Shown piece after piece: positions 9,473-17,828 of a DNA stretch of 64,000 bases (position 1 is the first letter of the stretch; the number at the start of each line of letters is the position of its first letter). The notes under the pieces are model-generated. The model did no database searches, was not told the origin of the DNA, and saw only the letters and a program-made list of their open reading frames with translations. Position numbers and translations under genes: made by a program. Origin of the DNA: Candidatus Hydrogenedentota bacterium (GTDB lineage Bacteria; Hydrogenedentota; Hydrogenedentia; Hydrogenedentales; JAEUWI01); NCBI GenBank assembly GCA_019637335.1, contig JAHBVV010000011.1, positions 62,001 through 126,000 of the forward strand, read 5' to 3'.

Positions 9473-10474
9473 ATGACCGGTATTACTTCGTTTTTGTGCC
9501 TCGCGGGTTGCCTCGTCGCCGCAACTCCCTCCGCGGACCTCGCCACCGCCGTGAACGCCTTTCTCGACGGGCTCGACGGCAGCCAGCGCGCCCGCGCGAC
9601 CTTCGCCTTCGATTCCGACGAGCGCTGGAACTGGCATTTCGTCCCCCGCGAGCGCGCCGGCGTCTCCTTTCGCGATTTCAACGAAGCCCAGCGGGATCTC
9701 GCGCTGGCGGTGTTGAAGGCCGGCCTCAGCGAACAGGGCTTTCTGACCGCCGAGACCATTCGCGACCTCGAAAACGTGCTCCGCGAAATCGAAGGCCCCC
9801 AGGCGACCCACCGCGACCCGCTCGCCTACCACTTCCTCGTCTTCGGAACCCCCGAACCCGAGGGGACCTGGGCACTCCGCTACGAAGGCCACCACCTCGC
9901 CCTCAACTGGACCGTGGTAGGCGGAAAGCCCATCGCCACGACCCCACAGTTCCTCGGGAGCAACCCCGGCGACGTCCAGCACGGCCCCCACGCCGGCACG
10001 CGCGCCCTCGGCGATCTCGAGGACCTCGGACGCGCCTTCGTCACGGAATTGGACGAAGCAGCCCGCGCGGCGGCCATCCTGAGCGACACCGCGCCGCGCG
10101 ACATTCTGACCGGAGCCTCGCGCGAGGCCGAACCGCAGGAAGACCGGGGCGTCCGCTATGCCGATCTCGCGCCGGAGTTTCAAGCCCGGATGATTTCCCT
10201 GATCGAGGCCTTCGCCCGTGTCCAGCGCCCCGAAATCGCCGAACAGCGGCTTGCCCGCATACGGCGCGCCGGGCTCGACGATGTGAAGTTCGCCTGGATG
10301 GGCGGCCTCGAAAAAGGACAGGGCCACTACTACCGGATCCAGGGCAAGACCTTCATTCTCGAATACGACAACACCCAGAACAACGCCAACCACGTCCACG
10401 CGGTCTGGCGCGACTTCCACGGCGACTTCGGCCGCGACCTCCTCCGCGACCACTACGCGCGCCACCCCCACTAA
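9473..10474 (+). CDS. DUF3500 family protein, probably exported
   Basis: A 333-residue protein. Its C-terminal part, G-H-Y-Y-R-I-Q-G then E-Y-D-N-T-Q-N-N-A-N-H-V-H and a D-F-G-x-D-L-L ending, is characteristic of DUF3500, whose biochemical function is unknown. The N-terminus is a short hydrophobic stretch with L-A-G-C at residues 10-13, so it may be a lipoprotein or a simply secreted protein; the usual positive charge before the hydrophobic core is missing. AAGGA lies eight bases before the ATG. It is divergent from infA. A hairpin with a TCA loop follows nine bases after the stop. Confidence 0.85.
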   Translation: MTGITSFLCLAGCLVAATPSADLATAVNAFLDGLDGSQRARATFAFDSDERWNWHFVPRERAGVSFRDFNEAQRDLALAVLKAGLSEQGFLTAETIRDLENVLREIEGPQATHRDPLAYHFLVFGTPEPEGTWALRYEGHHLALNWTVVGGKPIATTPQFLGSNPGDVQHGPHAGTRALGDLEDLGRAFVTELDEAARAAAILSDTAPRDILTGASREAEPQEDRGVRYADLAPEFQARMISLIEAFARVQRPEIAEQRLARIRRAGLDDVKFAWMGGLEKGQGHYYRIQGKTFILEYDNTQNNANHVHAVWRDFHGDFGRDLLRDHYARHPH

Positions 10475-10722: not shown

Positions 10723-10744
10723 ATGTCGTGAGATTGCGATATGT
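10720..10744 (+). promoter_or_regulatory. Candidate ArsR-family operator at the RND promoter
   Basis: The imperfect palindrome ATGTCG-N8-CGATAT overlaps the -10 element and start site. It matches the site in the arsR promoter (16641-16665, read on the minus strand) at about 19 of 25 positions, including an identical ATTGCGATAT half. Binding at the start site would repress transcription. Confidence 0.6.
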
Positions 10745-10785
10745 CCACGTGTGGCCCCACCTATGGGCTCGGAAGGATACCCCCC

Positions 10786-13617
10786 ATGAAAATCAGCGAT
10801 TCGATGACACGCGCCGCCATGGACCACGCGCGCCTCGTCGCCGCCGCCTTGCTCGCGGCCTGCGTCGCCGTTGCGCTCCTCGCCGGACTGCCCAGCGTCT
10901 TTCCCGATGCCCTCCCCGCGCTGAACGGCGTCAAGGTCGACACCGACCCCGAGAACATGCTGAGCCGCGACGAGGCGGTCCGCGTATTCCACAACGACAT
11001 GAAGAGAGTCTTCGCGCTGAACGAAATGGTCGTGCTCGGCGTGGTCAATGAATCCCACCCCGATGGCGTATTCAACCCCGAATCCCTGCGCAAGATATAC
11101 GAGCTCACCGAATACGCGCAGACGCTGCGAGGCGAGGCCATCGGCCAAACCGATCCCCAGGCCGGCGTCATCCGCGCGGATGTCATCGCCCCGTCAACGG
11201 TCGACAATATCGAGCAGGGCGGCCCGGGCGTCGTGAAGTTCGAGTGGCTCATGCCCGGGCCCCCCGCCACCGAGTCTGACGCCATCGCCGTGCGCGACAA
11301 GGCCCGCCGGATCCCCTTCCTCGACGGCACCCTGCTCTCGGAGAGTGGGGGGGCGCTCTGTCTCTACCTGCCCCTGACCTCGAAGGATCTGAGCTACAAC
11401 GTCTACTCCAGTCTCCGCGACCGGATCGCCACTTTCGAGGGGGACGAGCGCTACTTCATCACCGGGTTGCCCGTGGCCAACGACACCTTCGGCCATGAGA
11501 TGTTCGTTCAGATGGCGATTTCGGCCCCGACGGCCATGGTCGTCATCTTCCTCCTGATGCTCTTTTTCTTCCGGAAGCTCACTCTGATCATATCGCCGAT
11601 GCTGATTGCGCTGGCCTCCGTCATCCTCACGATGGGGACGCTGGTTATCACCGGCAACACGATTCACATCATGAGCTCGATGATCCCTATTTTCATCATG
11701 CCCATCGCTGTGCTCGATTCGATCCACATCCTGTCGGAATTCTTCGACCGCTACCAGCAGACGCGCAACCGCCGCGAGACCATGTTGCAGGTCATGGACA
11801 ACCTCTTCACACCCATGCTCTACACCTCGCTGACTTCGTCGGCGGGTTTCGCATCCCTGGCGCTCACCCCGATCCCGCCGGTACAGGTTTTCGGGCTCTT
11901 TGTCGCCATGGGCATCATGCTGGCCTGGTTCCTCACCATCACCTTCATTCCCGCGTATATCATGTTCATCCCGGAAAAGCGCCTGGAGAACTTCGGGCTT
12001 GTGCATGAGCCCGGTGCGGAGGAGGCCATCGAAAAGGGGCCGATCGCGCGCTTCCTGCACTGGATCGGCTATTTCGCCTTCCACCACGCCAAAGGCGTCG
12101 TGGCCGCCGCCGTCCTCCTGCTGGCGGTCGCGGCTTACGGCATCGCGAATATCGAAATCAACGACAACCCCACCAAGTGGTTCAAACAGTCGCACCCCAT
12201 CCGCGTGGCCGATAAGGTCCTCAACGAGCACTTCGGCGGCACCTACATGGCCTACCTCGTACTGCGCGCGCCCGGCGAGTCCGCCGAAACCGCCCTCGCG
12301 GGGACCAGCCAGCCCGAAGCCGAGGAAACGCCCGACGCGCCCGCCCTGCCCGCTGGACTGGGGGGCGACAGCGCGCCCGCCCTGCCCGCCGGCCTGGGGG
12401 GCGACCGTGCGCCGGCCCTGCCCGCCGGCCTGGGGGGTGCGCCGGTGGAAGAAGCAGCGCCCGCCCGGGCGGCGGATTCCGGAAAACCGGAAACCTTCAA
12501 GGATCCCGAAGTGCTCCGCTATATGCGCGGCCTCCAAGACCATCTGCAAACGACCGGCGTCGTCGGCAAATCAAATTCCGTCGCCGATATCGTGCGCACG
12601 GTCCACCGGGAACTGATCGATGGCAGCGAGGAGAATTTCCGTATCCCGGACAGCCCCGCCGCCGTCGCGCAGTGCCTCATGCAGTTCCAGAGCAGCCACC
12701 GGCCCGACGACCTGTGGAAGCTGGTCACCCCCGACTACCGCCAGACCAGCCTCTGGGTGCAGCTTCGCAGCGGCGACAACGTGGATATGACCCACGTCGT
12801 GGATGAAGTGGCCCGCTACATGGTGGAGAACCCCCCGCCCGTCCCCCTGGAACACGAGTGGTTCGGCCTCTCCTACATCAACGTGGTCTGGCAGGAGAAG
12901 ATGGTCGCCGGCATGCTCGAGGCCTTCCTCGGGAGCTTCCTGGTCGTCCTCTTCATGATGGTCATCCTCTTCCGGTCGGCGCTCTGGGGCCTGCTCTCCA
13001 TGATCCCGCTGACCCTGACCATCGCGCTGATCTACGGTGTTGTCGGCATCATCGGCAAAGACTACGACATGCCCGTGGCCGTGCTCTCGTCCCTCACCCT
13101 CGGCCTCGCGGTCGACTTCGCGATCCACTTCCTCGCCCGATCCCGCGCCCTGTATGCAACCTACGGATCCTGGGACGCCTGCCACGACCACGTCTTCGGC
13201 GAGCCGGCCCGCGCGATCATGCGCAACGTCGTGGTCATCGCCGTCGGCTTCACACCCCTGCTCCTGGCCCCCTTGCTTCCCTATGTCACCGTCGGCATCT
13301 TCCTGGCCTCGATTCTTCTCGTTTCCGGGCTGGCCACGCTGCTGCTGCTACCTTCGCTGATCCGCCTGCTGGAACCGCTCCTGTTCCCCAAAACCCAGTT
13401 GGTGGCCATGCTATGCCGTTTCGGAACCACCTTTGTCGCAAGCGTAATCGGCATCTTTCTCGTCGCCGTAAACGCGCACCCGTTCCTGGGCGTCACCTGG
13501 GCCACCCTGCTCACCGCCATCGCGCCCCTCGTTCTGGTCGCCGCCGGGATCAGCTGGGTCCTCGCCCGGCGCAGCTCGTGCCGCACCTGGCCAGCCGCCG
13601 AAACGGAGGCGCCATGA
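10786..13617 (+). CDS. RND/MMPL-family exporter with periplasmic PALPAGLGG repeats
   Basis: A 943-residue inner-membrane exporter of the MMPL branch of the RND superfamily, which uses the proton gradient to move lipids or hydrophobic compounds. It has the usual 12-helix plan: one N-terminal helix, a large periplasmic loop, helices 2-6 at about 240-400, helix 7 near 435, a second loop and helices 8-12. Acidic residues occur in I-A-V-L-D-S-I-H and G-L-A-V-D-F-A-I-H, the expected proton-relay positions. Residues about 518-552, in the second loop, carry three A-P-A-L-P-A-G-L-G-G repeats. ATG 10786 has GGAAGGA upstream. It leads an operon-like series with a LolA-like protein and an outer-membrane barrel. 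Confidence 0.9.
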   Translation: MKISDSMTRAAMDHARLVAAALLAACVAVALLAGLPSVFPDALPALNGVKVDTDPENMLSRDEAVRVFHNDMKRVFALNEMVVLGVVNESHPDGVFNPESLRKIYELTEYAQTLRGEAIGQTDPQAGVIRADVIAPSTVDNIEQGGPGVVKFEWLMPGPPATESDAIAVRDKARRIPFLDGTLLSESGGALCLYLPLTSKDLSYNVYSSLRDRIATFEGDERYFITGLPVANDTFGHEMFVQMAISAPTAMVVIFLLMLFFFRKLTLIISPMLIALASVILTMGTLVITGNTIHIMSSMIPIFIMPIAVLDSIHILSEFFDRYQQTRNRRETMLQVMDNLFTPMLYTSLTSSAGFASLALTPIPPVQVFGLFVAMGIMLAWFLTITFIPAYIMFIPEKRLENFGLVHEPGAEEAIEKGPIARFLHWIGYFAFHHAKGVVAAAVLLLAVAAYGIANIEINDNPTKWFKQSHPIRVADKVLNEHFGGTYMAYLVLRAPGESAETALAGTSQPEAEETPDAPALPAGLGGDSAPALPAGLGGDRAPALPAGLGGAPVEEAAPARAADSGKPETFKDPEVLRYMRGLQDHLQTTGVVGKSNSVADIVRTVHRELIDGSEENFRIPDSPAAVAQCLMQFQSSHRPDDLWKLVTPDYRQTSLWVQLRSGDNVDMTHVVDEVARYMVENPPPVPLEHEWFGLSYINVVWQEKMVAGMLEAFLGSFLVVLFMMVILFRSALWGLLSMIPLTLTIALIYGVVGIIGKDYDMPVAVLSSLTLGLAVDFAIHFLARSRALYATYGSWDACHDHVFGEPARAIMRNVVVIAVGFTPLLLAPLLPYVTVGIFLASILLVSGLATLLLLPSLIRLLEPLLFPKTQLVAMLCRFGTTFVASVIGIFLVAVNAHPFLGVTWATLLTAIAPLVLVAAGISWVLARRSSCRTWPAAETEAP

Positions 13618-13826
13618 CACTGCTCAGAAAACTCTCCCGAAAGAAACAGGTTGCAGTATCAACACAGCTGCTGCTCTCAGATTTCAAAGGGAGATACGGG
13701 TGCCACGTTCAAGCTCCGTGGCTCCGCCGCGAAGGCTTGAGCGTGCGAGATTCCAGTAGAGCGCCAACAATCAGAAGCAGCATTTCATCCAAGATGGTTT
13801 GCGCGAAGCGTCATGAAAGCCTGTAA
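13614..13826 (+). CDS. Possible small ORF overlapping the RND stop codon
   Basis: A 70-codon frame whose ATG overlaps the exporter stop as ATGA. It has no recognisable domain and its middle runs through an interspersed repeat (13666-13706), so it may be chance coding. A cationic N-terminus (L-R-K-L-S-R-K-K) is the only feature. I would treat it as doubtful. Confidence 0.2.
   Translation: MTLLRKLSRKKQVAVSTQLLLSDFKGRYGCHVQAPWLRREGLSVRDSSRAPTIRSSISSKMVCAKRHESL
13666..13706 (+). repeat. Repeat shared with 10613-10650
   Basis: Same ordered blocks as the copy upstream of the RND gene: AGCTGCT, TTTCAAAGGG, ACGGGTGCCAC. The copies differ by small insertions and substitutions. Confidence 0.5.
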
Positions 13827-13899
13827 CTCCAGGGCCTTTACGCCCAGTAGCTATTGAAATCCACAGAACGTTGAGACAAATACGTCAAGGAGACCAGCC

Positions 13900-14715
13900 A
13901 TGAAACTCTCTATACGCAACGCCACCCTGGCCCTCGCCCTCGCCGCCTTCCTCGCGGCCCCGGCGCCAGCCCAGGAGACCCCCAGCGTCGACGAGATCGT
14001 CCAGAAAGCCCAGCACATGGCCTACTACCAGGGCCAGGATGGCCGCGCCAAGGTCACTATGACCATCAAGGACAAGCAGGGGCGCACCCGAACCAAGGCC
14101 TTCACCATCCTGCGCATGAACGCGGACGACCAGGACCGCGAGCAGAAGTTTCTCGTCCACTTCTCCGAACCCGCCGACGAGCGCGGCACGGTCTTCATGG
14201 TGCACAAGCACGTCGGCAAGGAGGACGACCGCTGGCTTTACCTGCCCGCCCTCGACCTGGTCAAGCAGATCGCCGCGAGCGATGAGCGCACCAGTTTCGT
14301 GGGTTCCCATTTCTTCTACGAGGACGTCTCCGGACGCGGGATCGAAGAAGATACGCACGAACTCGTGGAGACCACGGCAAACGCCTACGTCTTGAAGAAC
14401 ACGCCGAAGAACCCGGGCGCGGTGGAGTTTGACTCCTTCACGATGTATATTGACAAGAACTTCTTCATTCCATTCGAGATTCGGTTTGAGAAGGGCGGCA
14501 ACGTCTACCGCATCGCCCGCGTCCTCGAAGTCAAGGACATCACGGGAAGCGACGGAACCGTCTACAAGACCGTGACCAAGTCGGAAATGGTGGACGTCGA
14601 GTCCGGCGGTTCGACGCGGCTGGATTACGAAAGCGTCGAATACGGCGTCGGCCTGAGCGACGATCTCTTCACGGAGCGCTACCTGCGCAAGCCGCCCCAG
14701 CAGTTCCTGAGGTAG
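13900..14715 (+). CDS. Outer membrane lipoprotein-sorting (LolA/DUF1329-like) protein of an RND module
   Basis: A 271-residue periplasmic protein. The first 25 residues form a signal peptide ending A-P-A-Q. The mature part has the LolA-like pattern of strands: K-V-T-M-T-I-K-D, then F-S-E-P-A-D-E-R-G-T, then W-L-Y-L-P-A-L, and a late R-I-A-R-V-L-E-V-K-D. This is the COG2834 type repeatedly found beside MMPL/RND exporters and outer-membrane barrels, where it is thought to shuttle a hydrophobic substrate across the periplasm. AAGGAGA precedes the ATG. It lies between the exporter and barrel genes, giving one gene per envelope layer. Confidence 0.85.
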   Translation: MKLSIRNATLALALAAFLAAPAPAQETPSVDEIVQKAQHMAYYQGQDGRAKVTMTIKDKQGRTRTKAFTILRMNADDQDREQKFLVHFSEPADERGTVFMVHKHVGKEDDRWLYLPALDLVKQIAASDERTSFVGSHFFYEDVSGRGIEEDTHELVETTANAYVLKNTPKNPGAVEFDSFTMYIDKNFFIPFEIRFEKGGNVYRIARVLEVKDITGSDGTVYKTVTKSEMVDVESGGSTRLDYESVEYGVGLSDDLFTERYLRKPPQQFLR

Positions 14716-14722
14716 TCCGGTT

Positions 14723-14753
14723 GCGCGCCGCCCCCGGCTGGGCGGCGGCGCGC
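14723..14753 (+). other. GC hairpin between the LolA-like and barrel genes
   Basis: GCGCGCCGCCC is followed by a GGGCGGCGGCGCGC arm with one three-base bulge. No T tract follows, so it is more likely an mRNA-stabilising or attenuating intercistronic hairpin than a terminator. Confidence 0.4.
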
Positions 14754-14779
14754 CCATTGGTTATGACAGGGCATACATC

Positions 14780-16273
14780 ATGATACACACGCGTCTCCCG
14801 CGCACGATTTCCCTGCTGGCATGCGGCCTGATCCTGCTCGTCGGCCTCCCCTTCAATCCCGCCGCCGCCCAGGACGAACCCGCGTTGCCCCCCGGCCTCG
14901 GCGGGCCAGAACCGGACGACGCCCCCGCGCTCCCGCCCGGCCTCGGCGGGGGGGAGGCCCCGGGCTTGCCACCGGGCCTGGGCGGGCCGGAAACCGGCGA
15001 TGCGCCCGCACTGCCGCCCGGCCTGGGCGATGCGCCGGAAGATTCCGCCGCGCCCGAAGCCGGGTCCGGCGATACGCGCTTGATCGATCGCCTGCCGCCA
15101 TGGCTCCACGGCTTCTGGGAAACCCGCGCGGGGATGCGGACCCACAACGATCCGGAACAGCCGGGGGATATCAGCATCGGCGAAACCCGCCTGCAACTCG
15201 AAGGCAAGAAGTTCTGGGACGCCGCCAGCCTCGAAGTCACCGCCGATTTCGTGGGGGACGCCGTGGATGAGGAGGGCCATTTCGACCTCCGCCAGCTACG
15301 CCTCAGTTTCTCGCCGCTCGATACCGTCGACATCCGCATCGGGCGGCAGGTGCTCACCTGGGGTACGGGCGATATGCTCTTCATCAACGATCTCTTCCCC
15401 AAGGACTGGCCGTCCTACTTCCTCGGCCGCGATCAGGAATACCTCAAGGCCCCCTCCGACGCCCTTCGCGTCGGCTGGTACCCCGGCCCCGTTAACATCG
15501 AAGTGGTGTACACGCCCCGATTCGATCGCGACCGTTTCATCCGCGGCGCCCGCGTCACCTACCACAACCCGCTCTTCGGGCCCTCGGGGCGCGACAGCCA
15601 GGTGCAGAGCAGCCCCCCGAATGACTGGTTTCAGGACGACGAAATCGCCCTCCGCATCTACCGCCGCGTCAACCGCTTCGAACTCGCGTTCTACGCCTAC
15701 GACGGCTTCTGGAAAAGCCCCGGCGGCCAGTCCTTCATTCCCTTCGAAGCCACCCACCCGCGGTTGCGCGTCTATGGGGCGAGCGCGCGCGGCCCGCTGG
15801 GCAAGGGGATATTCAACGTGGAAGCCGGTTACTACGACTCGCGGGACGACCGGAGCGGTGCGGATTTCGCCGTGAACAACAGCGAGTTCCGCTTTCTCAT
15901 CGGGTACGAACAGGAGCTCGCGAAAGAGTTCACCGGCGCCGTCCAGTACTACCTCGAACACATGATGGACTACGACGCCTACGCCAATTCCCCCTTCTTC
16001 CTGTTCCTCCCGAAGCGCGACGAGGACCGACACGTCTTCACCGCGCGCCTCACCAGACTCCTCATGAACCAGAACCTCACCCTCAGCTTCTTCGCATACT
16101 ACAGCCCCACCGACAAGGACGCCTACCTGCGGCCCAAAGCCACCTACAAGGTAAACGACCACTGGACCGTGGAAGCAGGGGGGAACGTGTTCCTCGGGCA
16201 GGACGACCACACCTTCTTCGGGCAGTTCGAAGCAACCACCAACGTCTACGCGTCGATGCGCTTCTCTTTCTGA
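14780..16273 (+). CDS. Outer-membrane beta-barrel protein with N-terminal PALPPGLGG repeats
   Basis: A 497-residue protein with a signal peptide ending near A-A-A-Q (residue 31), then about 55 residues containing four P-x-L-P-P-G-L-G repeats, and from about residue 100 a long barrel-like region of alternating strands ending in a C-terminal aromatic (M-R-F-S-F). The barrel resembles DUF1302/alginate-export-type proteins that accompany RND and LolA/DUF1329-like partners. The low-complexity tail would lie in the periplasm, and its motif also occurs in the exporter's second periplasmic loop. The role is inferred to be the exit pore or acceptor for the exported compound. The substrate is unknown. 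Confidence 0.8.
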   Translation: MIHTRLPRTISLLACGLILLVGLPFNPAAAQDEPALPPGLGGPEPDDAPALPPGLGGGEAPGLPPGLGGPETGDAPALPPGLGDAPEDSAAPEAGSGDTRLIDRLPPWLHGFWETRAGMRTHNDPEQPGDISIGETRLQLEGKKFWDAASLEVTADFVGDAVDEEGHFDLRQLRLSFSPLDTVDIRIGRQVLTWGTGDMLFINDLFPKDWPSYFLGRDQEYLKAPSDALRVGWYPGPVNIEVVYTPRFDRDRFIRGARVTYHNPLFGPSGRDSQVQSSPPNDWFQDDEIALRIYRRVNRFELAFYAYDGFWKSPGGQSFIPFEATHPRLRVYGASARGPLGKGIFNVEAGYYDSRDDRSGADFAVNNSEFRFLIGYEQELAKEFTGAVQYYLEHMMDYDAYANSPFFLFLPKRDEDRHVFTARLTRLLMNQNLTLSFFAYYSPTDKDAYLRPKATYKVNDHWTVEAGGNVFLGQDDHTFFGQFEATTNVYASMRFSF

Positions 16274-16296: not shown

Positions 16297-16605
16297 CTAC
16301 TTGAAGCGCTCGCCCACACACGCCATGATGTTATTCAGGTGCGGCTCATTGATCTGGTAGAAGATCTGGCGCCCACGCCGTTCCGCGCGAAGCAGCCCGC
16401 GGTCCTTCATCTTACCCAGATGTTCAGACGCCATATGGCTCGGAATGTCGCACGCCTCCGCCAGCTCGCCCACCGGGTACTCCCCCTGGATCAGCATCTG
16501 CACCATCCGCAGGCGGTGCGGGTGCGCCAGCGTGCGCAGGCATTCGGCCGCCTTCTCCAATCCCTCCAGGGACGTCAGCGGACATACTTTGTTTCGCGTG
16601 GTCAT
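16297..16605 (-). CDS. ArsR/SmtB-family transcriptional regulator
   Basis: A 102-residue winged-helix repressor. L-A-H-P-H-R-L-R-M-V-Q-M-L opens the first helices; G-E-L-A-E-A-C-D-I-P then H-M-A-S-E-H-L-G-K-M is the recognition helix-turn-helix; G-R-Q-I-F-Y-Q-I is the wing. Cys8, Cys22 and Cys52 could sense a metal, thiol or oxidant; the classical E-L-C-V-C-D motif is absent. I chose ATG 16605, 11 bases after GGAG; the in-frame GTG at 16614 is only two bases from that site. It converges on the barrel gene, and its promoter carries an operator matched at the exporter promoter, so it probably controls the export module and itself. Confidence 0.9.
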   Translation of the reverse strand: MTTRNKVCPLTSLEGLEKAAECLRTLAHPHRLRMVQMLIQGEYPVGELAEACDIPSHMASEHLGKMKDRGLLRAERRGRQIFYQINEPHLNNIMACVGERFK

Positions 16606-16640
16606 GGTTCGCACTGCTCCGTCTCTACCCAGACATACGT

Positions 16641-16755: not shown

Positions 16756-17828
16756 AACGCGTCAACCCGTGCCACGCGATCGCGCCCCCGAAGGATCGCG
16801 GGCATTCCTGCCCGCGACAACGACCGCCCCCGCCAGCACAACACCGCACCCTCCTCAACGCACCCCAGCCCCGCGCGTCATCCCGTGCCACGCGATCGCG
16901 CCCCAGCGCGTTCGTGTGCCAGGAGCAACGCCCGCCCACCACCGCCAAGCACCACCCCACACGAGCGGCTCCACACCCCACACGAGCGGCGAAAAGGCCC
17001 CCCCTCCCGGCGTGCCACGGACAAGCCCCCGCCCGTCATCCCGTGCCACGCGATGGCGCACCAGCGCCTTCGTGTGCCAGGAGCAACGCCCGCCCACCAC
17101 CGCCAAGCACCACCCCACACGAGCGGCTCCACACCCCACACGAGCGGCGAAAAGGCCCCCCTCCCGGCGTGCCACCGACAAGCCCGCAAGGGCTTGCCCG
17201 TGCCAGTCCCCAGGGACTGACGCGCCAAAACCACACCAACCACCAAAATCAGCCCACACGTCCAACAGAGCACAAACCCCCATCCCAGCCACCCCAACCG
17301 GCGGGTCTGTCCCGTCGCCGTCCACCCCAGCCCCGCGCGTCAACCCGTGCCACGCGATCGCGCCCCAGCGCGTTCGTGTGCCAGGAGCAACGCCCGCCCA
17401 CCACCGCCAAGCACCACCCCACGGCAAACCACACCCCGCTCCACACCCCCCTCCCGGCGTGCCACGGACAAGCCCCCGCGCGTCAACCCGTGCCACGCGA
17501 TCGCGCCCCAGCGCGTTCGTGTGCCAGGAGCAACGCCCGCCCACCACCGTCAACACCACCCCACACGAGCGGCTCCACACCCCACACGCTCCACACCCCC
17601 CTCCCGGCGTGCCACGGACAAGCCCCCGCGCGTCAACCCGTGCCACGCGATCGCGCCCCAGCGCGTTCGTGTGCCAGGAGCAACGCCCGCCCACCACCGT
17701 CAACACCACCCCACACGAGCGGCTCCACACCCCCCACGCTCCAGCCGTCCCCCCTCCCGGCGTGCCACGGACAAGCCCGCAAGGGCTTGCCCGTGCCAGT
17801 CCCCCCAGGCGCGCCCTGGCAGCCAATG
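16756..17828. repeat. C-rich long-period repeat array
   Basis: A unit of about 150 bases recurs with related starts near 16757, 16877, 17035, 17340, 17482 and 17633. Blocks recur in fixed order: GTGCCACGCGATCGCGCC, GCGTTCGTGTGCCAGGAG, CACACGAGCGGCTCCACAC and CCCGGCGTGCCACGGAC. Spacing varies because some units are truncated. Embedded hairpins include an 8-bp stem with a TTCC loop at 16796-16815 and CAAGCCC / GGGCTTG around GCAA at 17179-17196 and 17772-17789. The plus strand is strongly C-rich and G-poor. Long open frames on both strands are by-products of this composition. I do not consider it coding, and periods of 150 bases rule out CRISPR. Confidence 0.7.

Follow-up and report, generated by a model that had tools for sequence, protein, structure and literature searches.

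It is an open question how pumps of the MMPL/HAE3 type, without a classical adaptor protein, hand their hydrophobic cargo over to the outer membrane. A system of closely related composition is AmeABCD of Castellaniella defragrans, which comprises a HAE3 RND pump, a DUF1302 barrel, a LolA/DUF1329 protein, and a COG4447 protein, and has been proposed to export monoterpenes (PMC6394551). In the LolCDE system of E. coli, the Hook of LolC recruits LolA (PMC10865981). LolA3 of Porphyromonas gingivalis does not pair with the LolB of its own species (PMC13103446).

The window analyzed here is a stretch of 64,000 nucleotides from a Candidatus Hydrogenedentota bacterium (GCA_019637335.1, contig JAHBVV010000011.1). 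On its plus strand, three consecutive genes encode, in this order, an RND pump, a LolA-like protein, and a barrel (Table 1). The locus resembles AmeABCD in gathering a HAE3-type pump, a LolA-superfamily periplasmic protein, and an outer-membrane barrel in one cassette. However, AmeABCD has a fourth protein, AmeC, and none is seen between the three genes of the window, where the flanking genes encode a DUF3500 protein and an ArsR-type regulator; moreover, the barrel of the window is only a weak, below-cut-off match to DUF1302. The DUF3500 gene lies 5' of the pump (9473-10471, PF12006 at 2.5e-85), while the ArsR/SmtB-type regulator (16297-16614, minus strand) is convergent with the barrel gene. 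In an intergenic region downstream of this regulator (16869-17778), a 150-base unit is repeated in tandem about six times (77% match). With LolCDE the locus has in common a short element of an inner-membrane transporter and a LolA-fold carrier, but the LolC element is a folded hairpin, in one copy, within an ABC transporter, whereas the window has an RND pump and a barrel with repeated peptides in segments predicted to be disordered, and their binding is a prediction. LolA-like folds bind peptides in RseB-RseA and MucB-MucA. In these pairs the fold is bound to a periplasmic segment of its partner, as we propose here, and 3m4w, 6in9, and 6jau are among the Foldseek matches; yet they serve stress signalling, not transport, and the structural similarity is distant.

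Table 1. Positions in the window of the three genes and of the features discussed in the text.
Feature	Positions	Strand	Remarks
RND/MMPL (HAE3-like) inner-membrane pump	10741..13617	+	PF03176 at 1.6e-22; likely true start ATG 10789
Three PALPAGLGG units	12340..12438	+	Pump periplasmic loop 2, ORF residues 534-566
LolA-like periplasmic protein	13900..14715	+	PF17131 at 1.6e-48
Codon of LolA-like residue 185	14452..14454	+	Asp in the window
Outer-membrane beta-barrel with N-terminal tether	14780..16273	+	AF2 barrel, AlgE/MOMP/porin-like fold
Four P-x-L-P-P-G-L-G tether units	14879..15031	+	Start just past the barrel signal peptide

The assignment of the three proteins relies on profiles and predicted structures. 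In the pump, PF03176 matches in two stretches, one for each half, and the hydrophobic segments are interrupted by two long gaps, which correspond to two large periplasmic loops. Among NCBIfam families it matches TIGR00921 (HAE3) best, at 175 bits, below the cut-off of 352. The LolA-like protein matches PF17131 (LolA_like) over its full length (profile positions 2-184 of 184) at 165 bits, against a gathering score of 30, and the fold of one of its relatives matches 9tp6, 4z48, and 3bk5 in Foldseek. The first of these, LolA3 of P. gingivalis (PMC13103446), is the nearest solved relative in both sequence and fold. The barrel has no Pfam family above cut-off: DUF1302 (PF06980) reaches 13.3 bits, against a gathering score of 23.2, over 19 residues only, and a search by sequence found no solved relative. 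AF2 models it with about 16-18 long strands, with a pLDDT mostly above 90 (about 50 in the N-terminal tail), and the fold resembles AlgE, MOMP, and porins. This model and the signal peptide, judged by eye, identify an outer-membrane beta-barrel.

Two of the three proteins carry the same short repeat. The P-A-L-P-A-G-L-G-G units of the pump start at 12340, 12376, and 12412, with a period of 36 bases. They lie between the hydrophobic segments at residues 453-471 and 726-744, which, given the topology of RND pumps, places them in the second periplasmic loop. The units of the barrel, P-x-L-P-P-G-L followed by GG or GD, start at 14879, 14924, 14960, and 15005. Shuffles preserving composition gave 0.004 units in the pump loop (maximum 1) against 3 observed, and 0.012 units in the barrel tail (maximum 1) against 4 observed. 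Coordinates and shuffles thus agree with the initial annotation, which had reported three units in the pump loop and four after the signal peptide of the barrel. It had also stated that the units are not a recent DNA copy, and the codons bear this out: pump and barrel units differ in codon at 70% of shared residues, where independent draws from the codon usage would give 56%, so that no copy between the genes is detectable and we rejected a recent one. Among themselves, the pump units differ at 30% of codons and form a tandem repeat at 92% match. In the organism's own genome (7.16 Mb), the tandem motif is found only in the pump and barrel genes.

We searched for relatives of the barrel in the order of the window, in named genomes of other phyla (by their record labels, Planctomycetota, Thermodesulfobacteriota, Nitrospirota, Kiritimatiellota, Lentisphaerota, Omnitrophota, Myxococcota, Pseudomonadota, and others), and in further samples. 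The 65 motif-bearing barrels have 233 units, with the first proline present in 232, the first leucine in 231, and the last leucine in 225. The core conserved among relatives is [EAG]-P-x-L-P-x-G-L, and a scan with the leucines left unfixed gave the same core. It excludes the GG that the initial annotation had included in its motif, PALPxGLGG: the repeat stands, whereas its GG is not conserved. The flanks are free and the spacing varies from 8 to 32 residues. These relatives come from about ten phyla, and each has 1-6 copies at the mature N-terminus of the barrel. The first unit is mostly located 0-3 residues past a signal-peptidase-like site, at a median of 71 residues from the barrel. Composition shuffles of these barrels gave 0.28 units against 230 observed. 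Three barrels with a single strict unit (L278, L287, and L302) were scored by eye as motif-bearing, and three with pattern matches in upstream sequence (L270, L271, and L305) as motif-less.

The tandem motif is not a commonplace of these genomes. A search of 68 genomes of Hydrogenedentota and 35 of other phyla found it essentially only in the barrel and, for one lineage, in the pump; the few weak matches in other proteins (E above 0.008) look like chance. A random occurrence in unrelated proteins, named at the outset as the observation that would overturn the idea of a shared motif, is therefore not what we see. There is also a large sister group of barrels without the motif, as are about a third of the barrels from named genomes, and the presence or absence of the motif requires four changes on the barrel tree. 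We found no paper naming the motif in an open-access literature search. The repeats might be a passive flexible linker that arose by repeat slippage, in which case any correlated residue elsewhere would merely mark an operon subfamily. The 36-base repeat of the pump units and the different number of units among relatives fit this reading. But the core is near-invariant in both GC-rich and AT-rich genomes while the spacers are free, the units far exceed those of the shuffles, and those of the window's barrel share no codon pattern with those of its pump, and we consider a passive linker very unlikely.

A comparison of alignment columns between motif-bearing and motif-less operons singled out residue 185 of the LolA-like protein and the residue seven positions further on, as well as an LPSxWP segment of the pump after TM1. 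Residue 185 is His in 70 of the 72 motif-bearing operons and in none of the 85 motif-less ones (139 operons plus 18 more). Fisher's test on the 139 operons gives p = 5e-38, a value that ignores shared descent and cannot be read as a probability. The two exceptions are the window itself and its nearest relative, L060, which have the motif with Asp185; L062, L063, L091, L092, and L116 have a pump copy of the motif and yet retain His185. Distant motif-less relatives have Asp or Glu at this position, so Asp185 looks ancestral. Since several column scans preceded the choice of residue 185, its ranking is post hoc, and L157, from a Nitrospirota MAG, was then used as a check. The barrel and LolA trees both nest this operon within a clade of motif-bearing ones, which makes it a loss of the motif, and its LolA-like protein has Asp185 and Met seven residues further on. 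Among about 500 columns at least 90% conserved in motif-bearing operons, L157 differs at nine of those where it has sequence, and of these nine residue 185 alone separates motif-bearing from motif-less operons. In Desulfonema magnum, one of two paralogous operons has the motif and His185, the other lacks the motif and has Asp185. The LolA tree is deeply divided into two subfamilies, as a passive linker would allow, and common ancestry within each of two operon subfamilies could account for most of the association. With very few independent events, the independent-pairs test lacks power on residue 185. However, the nested loss in L157 accompanies the change H185D, which argues against the linker.

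The motif in the pump is a local feature. It is found in eight pumps (those of the window, L060, L062, L063, L091, L092, L116, and L257), all from Hydrogenedentota, and with so few a general co-occurrence in pump and barrel was rejected. All eight genomes also have a motif-bearing barrel, but the partner pump of most motif-bearing barrels is without the motif. The sharing of the motif by exporter and barrel, as initially proposed, therefore holds in the window and wherever the pump has it, not as a general property of the operon, and the expected correlation between orthologous partners runs in one direction only, from pump to barrel. At the motif site, the other pumps of the family almost all have an insert that looks helical from its sequence, whatever the motif state of the barrel, so the motif of the pump is a derived replacement. 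The motif thus belongs first of all to the barrel, and its acquisition by some pumps came later. The best pump tree requires three changes, and a single origin of the pump copies is compatible with the data (p-AU 0.142). The pump of L257/L259 (G303:C648) has several LPxGL units in loop 2; its match falls in two separate places, one of which contains a TGA, possibly due to a frameshift or an assembly error. In L186 (Planctomycetota), loop 2 of the pump has neither helical insert nor motif, and the barrel retains two units.

The peptide could also dock on the RND pump, at the helical insert or at the LPSxWP segment, and tie barrel and pump directly. Such a link between membranes would suit a pump. 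The segment, in full A-x-L-P-S-x-W/F-P, at RND residues about 50-64 (about 10888-10932 in the window), marks the motif-bearing operon subfamily: every motif-bearing pump examined at this site has it, and most motif-less ones do not. Its coupling to the motif, nearly perfect at first, was rejected when L157 (whose pump, L262, has LPSLWP) and L163 turned out to retain it without the motif, which indicates that this part of the pump is not tightly coupled to the peptide. The insert was rejected as the sole receptor: it persists alongside motif-less barrels, while L186 and the window's lineage lack it and still have the motif in the barrel. Pumps with the peptide would, in addition, have to bind their own kind. 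We regard docking on the pump as unlikely.

The reader of the motif is probably the LolA-like protein, a view we hold with moderate confidence: the motif is near-invariant and near-exclusive to the barrel, the tail is predicted to be disordered, residue 185 tracks the presence of the motif, and the LolC Hook offers a precedent. The operon may encode an envelope export line that runs from the RND/MMPL pump of the inner membrane, through a LolA-like carrier whose hydrophobic groove would hold the cargo in the periplasm, to the barrel of the outer membrane. The mature N-terminus of the barrel would be a disordered periplasmic tether of about 70 residues, with 1-6 copies of the eight-residue peptide [EAG]-P-x-L-P-x-G-L, whose avidity would hold loaded carriers close to the barrel. 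The lineage of the window has exchanged the helical insert of pump loop 2 for the peptide, so that docking of the carrier would be possible where it is loaded as well as where it is unloaded. The repeated units, their conservation, their almost exclusive presence in this barrel, the exchange in the pump, and the link to residue 185 are observations; binding of the carrier by the motif, a role of this binding in hand-over, and a lipid or another hydrophobic molecule as cargo are what we infer. The chances seem to us evenly balanced that the barrel has a disordered tether of multivalent docking peptides, read by the LolA-like carrier, and that the pump copy allows the carrier to dock at both ends. 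Slightly less probable, in our opinion, is the broader proposal that an exit barrel, and in one lineage also the pump, presents the same peptide arrays to a LolA-type shuttle; through avidity, the tether could bridge the periplasm in place of the adaptor channel of other RND systems. A near-invariant motif that occurs on the barrel in about ten phyla, and on the pump in one lineage, and tracks one residue of the LolA-like protein makes such a hand-over testable with a peptide and a point mutant.

Instead, the target of the tail might be its own barrel, whose lumen it would plug or gate, or a further periplasmic protein with its gene at another locus. It is attached to the barrel, always at the mature N-terminus, as this reading would have it. 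Yet the reading leaves both the identical peptide in pump loops and the tracking of residue 185 unexplained, and no barrel column moved to the motif-less state in L157, which argues against an action on the barrel itself; we hold it doubtful. Against the LolA-like protein as reader stand the two exceptions, which break the residue-185 rule in precisely the lineage of the window, the few independent events, and a structure prediction. For the latter, the LolA and barrel genes of L142 were joined in one chain by reading the stop codon that separates them as a residue. AF2 found no confident docking of the tail in this joined chain, in which the joined signal peptide may confound the result. The prediction of the carrier with the repeat, proposed initially as a check, thus gave no support for stable docking; the residue-185 association lends indirect support to the idea that this protein reads the motif. 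The more general idea of a docking or bridging element is partly supported: the motif is conserved and near-exclusive, but it belongs first to the barrel and only locally to the pump. In the model, the LolA half-barrel is confident and the tail units have a pLDDT of 44-54; residue 185, position 163 of this chain, lies where a strand ends, ahead of a hairpin turn.
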